DNA from: Maylandia zebra
Lineage: Eukaryota; Chordata; Actinopteri; Cichliformes; Cichlidae
Reading direction: 5' to 3'
DNA: 64,000 bases
NCBI RefSeq assembly: GCF_041146795.1
Contig: NC_135187.1
Location: 3,855,556 to 3,919,555 of the forward strand
A model generated the notes under the pieces. That model was not told the origin of the DNA. It made no database searches and saw nothing but the letters and a program-made list of their open reading frames with translations. Below are positions 5,940-63,890 of this stretch, in pieces. The translations under genes and the position numbers were made by a program. The number at the start of each line of letters is the position of its first letter. The first letter of the stretch is position 1.

Positions 5940-11154
<5,215 letters not shown>

Positions 11155-13994: not shown

Positions 13995-24935
<10,941 letters not shown>

Positions 24936-40249: not shown

Positions 40250-40331
40250 TCGGGTGAGGAGGGGTAGTTTACAGGAAGCACCTGAACGTAGCACCGCATT
40301 ATAGCAAGTCCAGCGGCTGTGGCTTGAAAAG
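40250..40331 (+). promoter_or_regulatory. Promoter-side noncoding first exon of cdc42-like gene 1
   Basis: A GC- and CpG-richer block ends at donor GAAAAG|GTAGGC (40331/40332). It is supported as an exon by similarity to the equivalent block of the second copy ending at 61483: both carry GTCCA.CGGCTGTG and (G)AAAG|GTAGG.GCTG, and intron similarity continues for about 50 bases. The 5' end (transcription start) is not defined. Confidence 0.6.
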
Positions 40332-41214
40332 GTAGGCGCTGTAAGTGACGTTAACGATTTATCGGTGGTAAATACTGAAATATCCACAAAAATCACCGGG
40401 AGGTGTTGGGCTCATCTTTCCGGAGTTAAAACTGGCTGTTAGTGAGCTGACAGCTCACTCTCCTATACGGTAGTTGTCAAAACAAATGATTTCCTTGAGC
40501 TAACTTTAAGCTAGCTTCGCTGTTAAATCTCTGCCCAAAGTTACCGGTACGTTGTTTTTTTGTTTTTATATTTTTGGGAGGTAAACTACAACGTTTAACC
40601 CTCTTATTTATAAAGTTTACACACGCGTCTTTTAAGATTGTTTTTGTCATTATCTTTATGTTAAAATACTTTTAAGCAGGTTATTTTGCTGTGGGTGGGG
40701 GTCTGGGCGGATGTAACTTTAGGTTAGCTTAGCCTCATTTAGCGAGCTTCGAAGAAGTAAAACTTTTAATGATAAACTTTTAGCAGATTATTTCCGTGAA
40801 AAACTGTCAGCAGGTAGCGACGTTAGGCGTTAAAACATAAAGAAATCTGTACTCAGTTACTGTACAAGTAGCAGGCCTGCGATTAAAATCTTACTGTAAG
40901 TAAGTGGACAGCTTCACATGCGGAAGTGAGTGAAAAGCAGCAACACTTGAATGGATTTTTAACCATTTACAGCTGAAAAAGTTGCCATAAATAAGTTGAA
41001 GTTGTCGGTGTTTGCTCAGGGTTCTGTTGACTTTTCTATTTGACGAGTCGGTGTTACTAAACTGCTGTTGGTAGTACCTCATACAAAATCTATCTTAAAT
41101 TTGACAACGAAAGTTGAAAGTGTCTTATATAAAACTTATAAACACTATGCTTTCCTTGAAGTTACCATTTTAAAATTTTTGGATATTTTAGCTTTTAAAG
41201 GCGATTCGATTAGG

Positions 41215-44619: not shown

Positions 44620-45220
44620 TAAGAGGGTGGTTGGAGAAGTCGTTTTCTCACATTTATTTGCTTCTGTATAAAATCAACCTGTTACAGAGCAGCTGTGTCT
44701 GCTTGCACTAAAACTTAATTAAAAGTAACTGGAAATTGTGTCGTAAGCATCGACTGTAATGACTGAAATCTTTTGTCTCATATTGTCAAGGCTTGTTTGT
44801 ATACAGTTATGTTGCCATGGTTACCCTTCTGCACATGAAGCATTGGTGGGAGGTGCAGAATCAAGAGCAGGGCATCACCTCGCTTATGGAAAGCCCCTGA
44901 AATGTAGCAGTTGCACCGGATGCTCAGTTTGATAATGACTGAAGTACAACTACAGCCTATTAATACTTTCATTCTCAGTGATTCAAGTAGATTAAACCTT
45001 AGATTATTCTCATAGATCCTTTTAGACTTGGTACAGATTGTCTCAAAAAGTTGCTTTTGTCTTAAAGGCAACACTCATCAGGTGATTTCCATTATGTATA
45101 ACATATCTAATTACTTTCATTATGGACAAACACCTGATTAAGGTCTGTCAGGGGCTTATTTTGTCATTCCAGCAGTCTTCCAGAGACCCCACTTCCCTGT
45201 CTCACATCTGTTGTACACTT
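44620..45220 (+). promoter_or_regulatory. Intron 1 block shared with the second cdc42 copy
   Basis: Shares a series of matching short stretches with 62297-63240: 'CATATTGTC', GTTGCCATGGTTACCC (44811-44826; GTTGCCACGGTTACCC at 62381-62396), GAGGTGCAG, and CCAGAGACCC..CC(C)TG.CTCACAT. The GTTGCC motif resembles an RFX X-box and lies 877 bases before the ATG here and 896 bases before it in the other copy. Retention in both copies is seen; enhancer function is inference. Confidence 0.5.
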
Positions 45221-45618: not shown

Positions 45619-56519
<10,901 letters not shown>

Positions 56520-59900: not shown

Positions 59901-61399
59901 CAGCGTAATTAAAGATATGACACTTTTTCTTAACTAAATAACAAAAGTAATTGTTTTCCAATTAGTAACAGACCGACATCCACACTCAACAGGCACTTTG
60001 TTAGGTCCACCTGCATGGCTACTTTAAGTGCAAACATTCATCAGCATAACTCAATAACTTAGACATGCAGACACAAGCAAGACATTCTGAAGTTCAAACG
60101 TCAGAAGAAAGGTGACTCATGGTTGTGGTTGGGATATGCCTGCACAACCATCTTTGGGGTTTACATAAAATTGTCTGAATGACAGAAAATATCCAGTAAG
60201 CAGCAGGTCTCTGGGTAAAAATTACTTTTTAGAGCTGATAGAGAAGCAACAGTAACTCCAAAGTCCTTACAGCCAAGATGAGCAGTAGAGCTACGGTAGA
60301 AGACCACACTGGTCCTGAGATAGACATATAGTTAATTAACTATTACTCATCGTAGGGAAAAAAAACACCATAAACAGACATGAGAACAGGAAACTGAGGT
60401 CCTCACTCACACAGGAGATGATGAAGATATTTTAAATTATCTGCAATAATAACTGAATCAGTTTGCTCATTAAAGCTAGACTTTTAAAAAAGTGTTCAAT
60501 TGGTTTGGCACATTTAGTCCTCCGTAAATACACGGTTGGTTTTCAATAATGCTGGTTAGTACAGGACCCACACGGCGCTTTCTCTGACTGACAAAGGAGC
60601 ATGAACTGATTTCCTTTTTCTTTTTTTCGTTTTTTTAGATAGCGCTGATTGTAATTGTTTAAAGTCACTTTGGGCTTCTGGGCTCCAGAAGCCGATATGG
60701 AGCCGGTGATCCCTTTGGGCGGATGTGAAGTGTCAAAAAGGGATCGAGATCAGAAAAATCAGGCCAAGAGGACGAGTTATTTCTTTATTTTACTTATAAC
60801 GCCTTTAAACCCTGTTGGCCACAGACTATTTACCAATACAAGCAAAGTTATTACACATGGGAAACACAGAAACATTGGAAATTATATTTTGGCACCTCGC
60901 GTTTTCTTAGTGGACTCTCAAAGACGCATTTTCAGTGGGAAATGTGTCGCGGTTCAGACTCTGTACCTGAAAATAATCAGAGCACAGAGTGTCTGCAGCT
61001 GTTTAAATTAACTCCAAAGTAAACAAAATCAGTTTTAGCGTCTTAAAGTTATTTAAGCCTCATCTTCACTCAAATATTTACATTATGTCCAAAATCCAAC
61101 TGGGATATTTCGATTGATTCCAACACGACAAATGATTGATTATTGATCAATGTGTTCTGTGCCTTAAAAAAACCCTTTGCAAATGAATCAGCTCTTCTTC
61201 GCACTTTGGCAGCGGCTGTGAATGAGGAAATGAATCAGCTGGCTCAGGTACAGCAGGAAGGGAGGAGATAGAGGGACACTCAGTTTGCTGAAGAAAATCT
61301 GACAGCGAGCAGGATTAGTTCACGGGGTCTGTTACCCCGGTAACTAACTTGGAGTTGACGTTTACTCGGTCTGGAGCAGAAAACCCGAACTTGGCCTCA
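56911..61399. other. Region between the two cdc42-like genes
   Basis: No supported exon. Contains a short minus-oriented repeat fragment (57930-58015, 'GGGGATTCAAACAAGGAACC..AACGCTGCTAACCGCTGCAG') of a common teleost repeat. A 118-codon frame at 60655-61011 has no recognisable family features. Part may be extended 3' UTR of the first copy. Confidence 0.55.
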
Positions 61400-61483
61400 A
61401 CCCTGGATTATCAAACTCAGAGCTGATCGCTAAACCCGCTCCCGGAATAAGACCTAGCGGTCCATCGGCTGTGAACAGGAAAG
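61400..61483 (+). promoter_or_regulatory. Noncoding first exon of cdc42-like gene 2
   Basis: Ends at donor GGAAAG|GTAGGAG (61483/61484) within a local CpG-richer block. Its end and the start of its intron align to the first copy at 40305-40390: GGTCCATCGGCTGTG, AAAGGTAGG.GCTG, CGATTTA, AAATACT.AAATATC. This indicates that the promoter-side exon was duplicated with the gene. The 5' limit is unknown. Confidence 0.55.
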
Positions 61484-63276
61484 GTAGGAGCTGCCAGTTA
61501 TTATAAACTGCGATTTACTGACAATAAATACTCAAATATCTTCAGGGTACCTGTGGCAACCAAGACATTGGAGATTTAAAAATGATGGTAATGTGTGCGT
61601 TTTAACTCAAATTGTTATTTAAATTATTTTTTATTGCCTGAACATTTTGAGAATACACGTCTTAAACTTCAGTAAATAACAAAATATAATTAAAATAACA
61701 CATAGGTCATGTATTCAGTGGTGTTGTTTGTCTGGCCAACTTGAAATCAGATTATGCTGAAGTTAAATAGTTTCATTTTTAAAATGAGCTCAATGATGAA
61801 AGTCATTTGCTGCAGTCTGCAGAACAGGAGTATCTGGATGCACCTGATAAACAACAATGTTTGACTTCCCAGATAAGAAGATGACATTTAGAAAAATGTT
61901 GGCCTGTCACCTGAGTCATGATTACGGTCGACTGTGGAATCTTAGTGCAACAAAAGGTCAGATCAACTTTAAAATACTGATGATCCTCGGACGTTTACAT
62001 AAAAAACACTTTTTGAGCACTTTTTCAGATACTGATCGTTACACGTCCTTGTCTCTGTTCGCCTACATCATTAAACTAGTGCATTTTTGCTGTTTAAAGT
62101 ATCATAGTTACACCTCATGATATTTAACCCTGAAACCCTTGGTCACCCTAACCCTTGGTGTGACAGAGGAGGATATTGTGATAGGGTGCGATGTTGGCAG
62201 ATGTGGTGACTCCTAAAAGGACCAGCCAAAAGAAGAAGATGATGAATGTATAACTGTCTTCACTGAATTAAAACAACAACAACACAGTCAGCTAATTGTG
62301 AGGGGGTCATGGGGAACTTTCTCAGATTTGACTGCTTTTGTATCAAATGAACATGGTTATCATATTGTCTGAGGTGTTCTGTTGCCACGGTTACCCCACC
62401 AAGGAGGCAGAGGCCAGAGGTGCAGGGCAGAGAGCGGGGAATAGTCTCCAAAGTGAAAAGCCCTTCAAACATCTCTGTGCTGCACTCGGCGATGGACATT
62501 TTAAAAAAGGACAAAATTACTTTAATGGTAAAGGCAGCGCACACACTTAACCAGTGATGTGTGTGTCCCAAGGTTCATGAACTTACCATGATTTAAGGCG
62601 TCAATGAGCATCATCACATGCTCTGCTCACCTCAGAATCGCCTTGTCATTGGGAACCATCAACCAATCAGAGCATAGTTGTGGTAGACTTAGGAGAGAGA
62701 AGTTCTAGGAGTCCAATATCAATATTTATATTATATTTCTAAATACTTTCAAGTTGTGCCAAGAGATTATGACACACTAATCTGAATCTCTTTCTGGATG
62801 CGCAAAATCAATTCGTGCCTGATGTGGAAGAAGAAAAAAGAAAGAAAGAAGATACGTAGCCTCTTAAACATGAAGCAATAATGTGTTTGGTCTAAACTGA
62901 ATATATACCAATCAAGTACATTTGACCAGATTCATTTACATTTAAGATTTTACTCTGTAATTAAAAGTAATCAAATTAGTTAAAATCAGCATTTTTAGCA
63001 TGAATATTTTCTTGAGTGTTGGTGGTCTGCAGTCTGGTCTTGTTCTGTTTGTACTGACATCAGTTCCAAATTTACAGTGACAACTTTTATTGTTTGTTAC
63101 TGTAACCATAACTGTTACAGTATCATACATATAATAAGTCTATTTAAGCACAAGTGTCTAATTAAAATCAGCTGCATACTGTAGATGACACTCCAGAGAC
63201 TCCCTCTGTTCCCCTGCCTCACATTTACTGTTCATTCATTCTTTGCTTCTTCATCATCTTCCATCCTCCTCCTCAG
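61484..63276 (+). other. Intron 1 of cdc42-like gene 2
   Basis: 1.8 kb against 5.4 kb in the first copy. Contains the shared block described at 44620-45220 (here about 62297-63240), with GTTGCCACGGTTACCC at 62381-62396. Nothing else recognisable. Confidence 0.6.
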
Positions 63277-63890
63277 ATGTCCACTATAAAGTGCGTGATG
63301 TTGGGTGACCTTGAAGTGGGAAAAACCTGCCTGTTCATGTCCTACACGGTCAACAAGTTTCCCTCTGAATACGTGCCCACGGTGAGGTGAAAGTCTGCAG
63401 ACATGCAGCAGCATTCATTTCACTTTATTCCATGTAACACAGTGTACAGCTCTTGTGCTGTTCCAGGGTTTTTATGCATAGAAGAACTGTCAGCGCCCCC
63501 TTTCAACACTGTGATGAAGCTATTACTATTTATGAACCCATAATATTACACAGAGGAGTGTTTTTAATGGACCTATTTGTGTTGTGTTGTGTTGAAAAAC
63601 ATACAAGTTAAACACCACTTATGATGAAAAAGATTTTTTGTGTAAGGATCCTTGGTCAAGACACTGAAGCCCAAACTGCTTTGATAAATCAGTGTGAGTG
63701 CATGGAATAAATCCAATTTTATTATGAAGAACATCTGTAATCAAGTCCTTTTGGCGGGTTTACTTCCTTCCTGTTGTCTCTTTCTTGTTCTCATTCCTCA
63801 GCCTCTGTCTCCTCCAGGTGGTGAACACTTACTCCATGACGGTGATGATCAGAGAGGAGGAGTACACTCTGAAAATGTGCGACACTTCGG
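63277..63890 (+). CDS. Second, diverged Cdc42-like GTPase (5' part, runs off window)
   Basis: Two exons are visible, 63277-63381 and 63818-63890, coding residues 1-59 plus the first base of Gly60, with the same borders and phases as cdc42-like gene 1. Both sit between good splice sites (CCTCAG acceptor before ATG, GTGAGG donor; CTCCAG acceptor, GTAAAG donor), and no stop or frameshift is seen. Compared with Cdc42, about 20 of 60 residues differ. P-loop reads GDLEVGKT (G12L, A13E); switch I has T35 but F37V, D38N, N39T; DTSG replaces DTAG (A59S). K16, T17, D57 and G60 remain. In Ras/Rho proteins G12 changes impair GTP hydrolysis, and F37/D38 are effector contacts, so altered signalling is plausible. 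It may be a functional divergent paralog or early decay; exons 3-5 lie outside the window. Confidence 0.85.

Follow-up and report, generated by a model that had tools for sequence, protein, structure and literature searches.

A rapidly diverging tandem duplicate of Cdc42 in the cichlid Maylandia zebra: a possible atypical GTPase

An intact Cdc42-type gene of Maylandia zebra is followed by a divergent tandem cdc42-like duplicate which, with a probability of about 0.5, is coding or was so until recently and specifies a protein predicted to bind GTP, to resist GAPs and to have lost the CRIB effectors. The window, i.e. the whole stretch of DNA that was analysed, comprises 64,000 nucleotides of contig NC_135187.1 (positions 3,855,556 to 3,919,555 of the forward strand), and the copy lies at its 3′ end. 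We regard the copy as a tandem paralogue of Cdc42 that evolves fast and may be an atypical GTPase. Few animal proteins vary as little as Cdc42, and the copy, if functional, would be a natural test case for the way in which a GTPase turns atypical, tolerating changes both at G12 and in the effector loop; it could show whether the loss of hydrolysis and the loss of the old effectors must coincide. As a pseudogene, it would be an ordinary finding.

The parent gene and the divergent copy

The parent gene contains five coding exons on the plus strand, spans 40.3-56.5 kb including its putative 5′ exon and codes for 191 residues, with all introns bordered by GT/AG. Its residues 1-59 are identical to the PDB Cdc42 chain 1ees_A, which we take to be the human Cdc42 sequence. 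Coding exon 1 of the copy sits about 6.8 kb beyond the parent gene. The features of the two genes are listed below, a slash marking exon borders.

40302..40331, + strand: 3′ part of the parent 5′ non-coding exon, predicted from its match to the copy; donor GAAAAG/GTAGGC
45688..45792, + strand: parent coding exon 1
54378..54450, + strand: parent coding exon 2
55060..55169, + strand: parent coding exon 3, containing Q61
55449..55646, + strand: parent coding exon 4
56430..56519, + strand: parent coding exon 5, giving the C-terminus KKRCVLL and the stop codon
61340..61483, + strand: putative 5′ non-coding exon of the copy together with its proximal promoter, with an undefined start, predicted from the match to the parent; donor GGAAAG/GTAGGAG
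62255..62520, + strand: duplicated intron-0 block of the copy, matching parental positions 44696-44947 in collinear order
62381..62394, unstranded: X-box-like (RFX) palindrome GTTGCCACGGTTAC, aligned with that of the parent at 44811-44824
63277..63381, + strand: copy coding exon 1, residues 1-35, with the P-loop GDLEVGKT
63382..63817, + strand: copy intron 1, GT...AG, 436 bp
63818..63890, + strand: copy coding exon 2, residues 36-59 plus base 1 of codon 60, with the switch I sequence VVNTYSM and the motif DTS

Two cdc42-like coding exons with an open frame and splice sites, as described in an earlier sequence-only reading of this DNA, are indeed present at 63277-63381 and 63818-63890. The copy starts with ATG at 63277, its exon 1 ends at 63381 in the donor CCCACG/GTGAGG, and exon 2 lies between the borders CCTCCAG/GTGGTG and ACTTCGG/GTAAAG, the start, both acceptors and both donors being intact and 59 codons open. 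The duplicated unit extends further than that reading reported: it begins near 61.4 kb, where a putative second version of the 5′ non-coding exon is located.

Within residues 1-59, the only part compared, the copy differs from the parent at 20 of 59 positions and agrees with it at 39 (66% identity). The changes are Q2S, V8M, V9L, G12L, A13E, L20F, I21M, T25V, F37V and D38N, followed by N39T, A41S, V42M, G47R, G48E, P50E, G54K, L55M, F56C and A59S. All six replacements named earlier (G12L, A13E, F37V, D38N, N39T and A59S) are therefore real, although they make up an incomplete list. The canonical effector loop TVFDNY is replaced by TVVNTY, and residues 26-36, 11 in a row, are identical in the two proteins. 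The Ras/Rho motif residues G10, G15, K16, T17, T35 and D57 are present in the copy, as is Y32. Retention of the nucleotide-binding residues had been claimed for K16, T17, T35, D57 and G60, and it holds for the first four; G60 is not visible because codon 60 is interrupted by an intron behind its initial G (TCG G/GTAAAG), the one base of this codon that the window shows. The window ends 110 bases 3′ of copy exon 2, and exons 3-5, including Q61, TQxD and CaaX, lie beyond it.

Intron 1 is 8585 bp long in the parent (45793-54377) versus 436 bp in the copy, with the first ~80 bp still matching. The parent intron 1 also harbors a 141-codon stop-to-stop open frame at 47653-48078 (+).

Extent and origin of the duplicated unit

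The BLASTN comparison of 57-64 kb with 38-57 kb gave nine matches, four of which are strong and collinear on the plus strand: 61455-61544 against 40302-40388 (69% identity, E 3e-5), 62255-62520 against 44696-44947 (E 1e-8), copy exon 1 with its flanks (E 1e-22) and copy exon 2 with its flanks (E 4e-12). The other five are weak (E 0.003 to 0.05) and include a 41-base piece of intron 1 that is also collinear and a match at 62273-62357 near its expected place; the three that are out of order or on the opposite strand are treated as chance. As a control, six non-coding blocks were each compared with 60 random segments. For four of the six, including 61400-61560 and the intron-0 block, none of the 60 segments aligned as well, while just upstream of copy exon 1 the alignment to the parent was no better than random (52 of 60 segments as good), and at the start of copy intron 2 it was little better (5 of 60).

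The first duplicated block ends in a splice donor common to both genes (GAAAAG/GTAGGC in the parent, GGAAAG/GTAGGAG in the copy), from which we infer a duplicated 5′ non-coding exon in the copy. The copy is a tandem gene duplicate carrying the 5′ exon with its donor, the intron-0 block and two coding exons in the parental order. A retroposed copy, or processed pseudogene, is ruled out by the introns, the 5′ exon and the intron-0 block. Chance similarity is ruled out as well, since in a tblastn search of the window with the copy the parent exons 1 and 2 were matched with E 4e-16 and 3e-5, respectively, and every remaining match had an E value of at least 0.47.

Relationship to known GTPases

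The Pfam Ras model matches residues 5-58 of the copy with 51.2 bits (cutoff 21.6), and the related Roc model reaches 28.9 bits (cutoff 27). Among the best 60 of 505 PDB matches, the first 36, which are named Cdc42/G25K or, in a few cases, merely "GTP-binding protein", have E values of 5e-22 to 1.6e-19 and precede Rac2 at 8e-17; the two top ones (4js0_A and 1a4r_A) are Cdc42 chains with V at residue 12. By sequence, the copy is a Cdc42 relative that lacks the canonical effector loop of this subfamily. Like the parent and the fish cdc42 and cdc42l genes, it keeps the borders of coding exons 1 and 2 and the frame of the P-loop, and unlike Cdc42 it is altered at one third of the positions at which the parent equals 1ees_A (20/59).

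Rnd proteins are described as GTP-locked and devoid of hydrolysis owing to changes equivalent to Cdc42 G12, A59 and Q61 (PMC6696182, excerpts, where the RhoA numbering 14, 61 and 63 is used). Positions 12 and 59 are changed in the copy and position 61 is beyond the window. The earlier comparison with atypical Rho proteins is reasonable. The positions affected could nevertheless be coincidental, the chance that 20 changes in 59 residues include both 12 and 59 being 0.11. The PDB sequences of Rnd1 and Rnd3 (RhoE) read GDVQCGKT and GDSQCGKT, respectively, followed by DTSGSP, versus GDLEVGKT and DTS in the copy. Like them, the copy has serine at position 59, a replaced G12 (V in Rnd1, S in Rnd3, L in the copy) and a replaced residue 13 (Q in both Rnd proteins, E in the copy). 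Unlike the copy, Rnd1 and Rnd3 retain F37 and Y40 in the effector loop, and unlike theirs the overall sequence of the copy is that of Cdc42. Close kinship to Rnd is ruled out, as the best 60 of 505 PDB matches are Cdc42 or Rac, with no Rnd among them. The copy also resembles RhoU and RhoV (Wrch/Chp), atypical Rho proteins which, in the excerpts of PMC6959303, have effector-loop residues of their own for some partners; unlike these proteins, to which the same excerpts ascribe N-terminal extensions, it starts at M1 as Cdc42 does.

Coding gene or decaying copy

The copy and the parent differ at 15, 9 and 16 sites in codon positions 1, 2 and 3, respectively, with NG86 estimates of dN 0.225 and dS 0.438. 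Under a codon model which assumes that the parent protein is frozen and that both branches have had equal time, omega for the copy is 1.38, with a range of about 0.65-3 (values of 0.7 and 3 cost no more than 1.9 lnL units). An omega of 1 fits equally well (lnL -382.8 vs -382.5), a neutral 64-state model falls short of the best one by 1.3 lnL units, and a Cdc42-like constraint (omega 0.2) is rejected by 13 lnL units, so the copy is not constrained as Cdc42 is. Exon 2 has changed more than exon 1 (12/24 vs 8/35 residues), a weak difference with a Fisher P of 0.049. The replacement rate argues for relaxed or diversifying selection on the copy.

The signs of an unprocessed pseudogene were looked for in the 59 codons, the two acceptors and the two donors, and no stop, frameshift or lost splice site was found. 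When 24 to 34 neutral mutations were simulated on the copy, 48.1 to 35.5% of the outcomes were free of stops. Given the 16 gaps per 297 mismatches counted in the six flanking non-coding blocks, the probability of no indel in the copy over the same numbers of mutations is 0.27-0.16; that of the start and the four splice dinucleotides all surviving is 0.22-0.12. The joint probability of no stop, no indel and an intact start and splice sites is 0.030-0.007 if these are independent. The six signature residues would all be kept under neutrality with P 0.07-0.09. The integrity of the gene is thus a moderate argument that the copy has had a coding function for most of its history.

The character of the replacements gives a mixed picture. 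The longest unchanged run (residues 26-36) is not significant (P 0.15-0.24), and in none of 12 settings is the mean BLOSUM score of the 20 replacements significantly above the neutral expectation (P 0.19-0.29). None of the V/L/I/M/F/C residues has left that set (P 0.006-0.018), which was chosen after the changes had been seen; when Ala is added, three are lost (P 0.38-0.54), and when Ala, Trp, Tyr and Thr are added, three are lost as well (P 0.16-0.42), neither result being significant.

The sequence-only reading had preferred an atypical GTPase to random loss. This preference, for which the intact frame, start and splice sites speak with their neutral chance of ~1-3%, has a weaker basis than was claimed there: the rate of change is neutral-like or higher, the BLOSUM test is null and hydrophobicity is significant in only one of three residue sets. 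A young pseudogene, in which constraint was lost after duplication and the 59 visible codons are open by luck, is somewhat unlikely. It would account for a replacement rate equal to the neutral one (omega near 1, and a 64-state neutral model only slightly worse than the best), for changes falling on otherwise highly conserved residues, for conservative-replacement tests that are mostly not significant and for the stop-free third to half of the simulated neutral copies; against it, ATG, GT/AG and frame would all survive in about 1-3% of neutral histories, this figure being a product of separate chances, the six signature residues are kept, and the 5′ exon donor and the intron-0 block are kept too. 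Truncation of the copy to exons 0-2, with the retained donor splicing to nothing useful, is highly improbable: it would fit the position of exons 3-5 beyond the window end and the near-random alignment of the intron 2 start with the parent, and the intact exon 2 donor CGG/GTAAAG speaks against it.

Proposed mechanism

If the copy is a GTP-binding, GAP-resistant paralogue, as we favor, its protein would bind GTP and Mg2+, and the bulky residue 12 together with glutamate 13 would block RhoGAP-assisted hydrolysis. Together with A59S, these P-loop changes may shift the protein towards its GTP-bound form, in the manner of Rnd proteins, and from them we infer that GTP loading might even be permanent. 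F37V, D38N, V42M and F56C would do away with the CRIB contacts as well as with the layer packed behind switch I, and the PAK/WASP/ACK-type effectors would thereby be lost. The copy would then act, if at all, via other partners, e.g. GEFs or RhoGDI shared with Cdc42, either as a divergent competitor or as a specialised switch in the tissue in which its retained 5′ elements direct expression.

Residues F37, D38, V42 and F56 are all replaced in the copy. For Cdc42 and PAK1, Kd values of >2000 nM (D38A), 190 nM (F37A) and 550 nM (D38E) are given in the excerpts of PMC9241073, the effect of V42A being mild (40 nM). In the excerpts of PMC5500802, D38A weakens ACK binding 67-fold, V42 counts among the main contributors to it, and F56 of Cdc42 packs behind F37 and D38. 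The earlier statement that F37 and D38 changes disrupt CRIB binding agrees with these excerpts, in which D38A and F37A weaken PAK1 or ACK binding (PMC9241073, PMC5500802). It is not certain that all CRIB partners would be lost, because RhoV, although atypical, uses its own atypical effector loop to bind the PAK6 CRIB (PMC6959303, excerpts).

A GDP/GTP-cycling Cdc42 paralogue with shifted effectors and normal or fast, RhoU-like exchange, rather than a GTP-locked one, is improbable. T35, D57 and Y32 are kept, and the excerpts of PMC6959303 present RhoU as mainly GTP-bound, presumably through fast exchange, and the distinct effector-loop residues of RhoU and RhoV as serving different PAKs, all of which would suit such a protein.

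Substitution of G12 in Ras/Rho proteins generally blocks GAP action, and for this reason GAP control of the copy is unlikely, which counts against a cycling paralogue. The fullest version of the GTP-loaded reading, in which a constitutively loaded, CRIB-blind Cdc42 reached the Rnd solution (12, 59 and, as predicted, 61) independently, rebuilt switch I with F37V/D38N/V42M/F56C as one packing unit and is driven by its own duplicated promoter with RFX-type sites, is speculative and must be regarded as doubtful.

Fish cdc42 genes

The original annotation paper for the fish genes is said to be that of Salas-Vidal in 2005. Zebrafish has cdc42, cdc42l (cdc42c) and a divergent cdc42l2 (cdc42b), the last being 77% identical to human CDC42 (PMC7762611, excerpts), versus 66% identity of the copy to its parent over residues 1-59 only. 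Both cdc42l2 and the copy are divergent fish Cdc42-type genes, and the former may be an orthologue of the latter. In the excerpts of PMC7762611 cdc42b is not detected by RT-qPCR, a point against the reading we favor for the copy; in those of PMC9561152 RNA-seq counts are reported for cdc42l2, lower in pax3 double mutants, and a cdc42b accession is given in PMC2853574 (likewise in excerpt). Tissue-dependent dominance of cichlid cdc42 duplicates and a single zebrafish cdc42 copy found in Ensembl are mentioned in the excerpts of PMC4632047.

In the literature searched, mostly titles, abstract starts and passages, no description of a tandem, P-loop-altered Cdc42 was met. Relatives of the copy were sought by pattern in a viral collection (viral_contigs, 11 stretches matched, none confirmed) and a prokaryote collection (genome_contigs, 30 matched, none confirmed); since these collections are viral and prokaryote, the misses say little about orthologues.

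Neighbourhood and X-box-like palindromes

Exons of a triosephosphate isomerase gene are located at 8470-8841 (+) and an enolase at 19733-19954 (-), the best PDB matches of which are to gamma-enolase, with beta- and alpha-enolase nearly tied. TPI1 and ENO2 lie next to each other on human 12p13, and human CDC42 lies on 1p36 with ENO1/RERE. Because the TPI and enolase neighbours resemble human 12p13, the parent may descend from an old whole-genome duplication, as a partner of CDC42 that was lost in mammals.

X-box-like palindromes (GTNRCCNNRGNNAC), which we assign to the X-box/RFX motif, occur at 44811-44824, 61331-61344, 61547-61560 and 62381-62394. These four sites account for all seven strand matches to GTNRCCNNRGNNAC in the whole window, and every one belongs to the 5′ portion of one or the other Cdc42 gene. 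Seven matches were observed versus 0.91 expected and none of 100 shuffles reached seven, palindromes being counted twice and the pattern having been picked after the conserved block was seen. The palindromes at 44811 and 62381 are aligned copies within the duplicated intron-0 block, and their persistence in both blocks suggests RFX control of both Cdc42 genes through these candidate sites.
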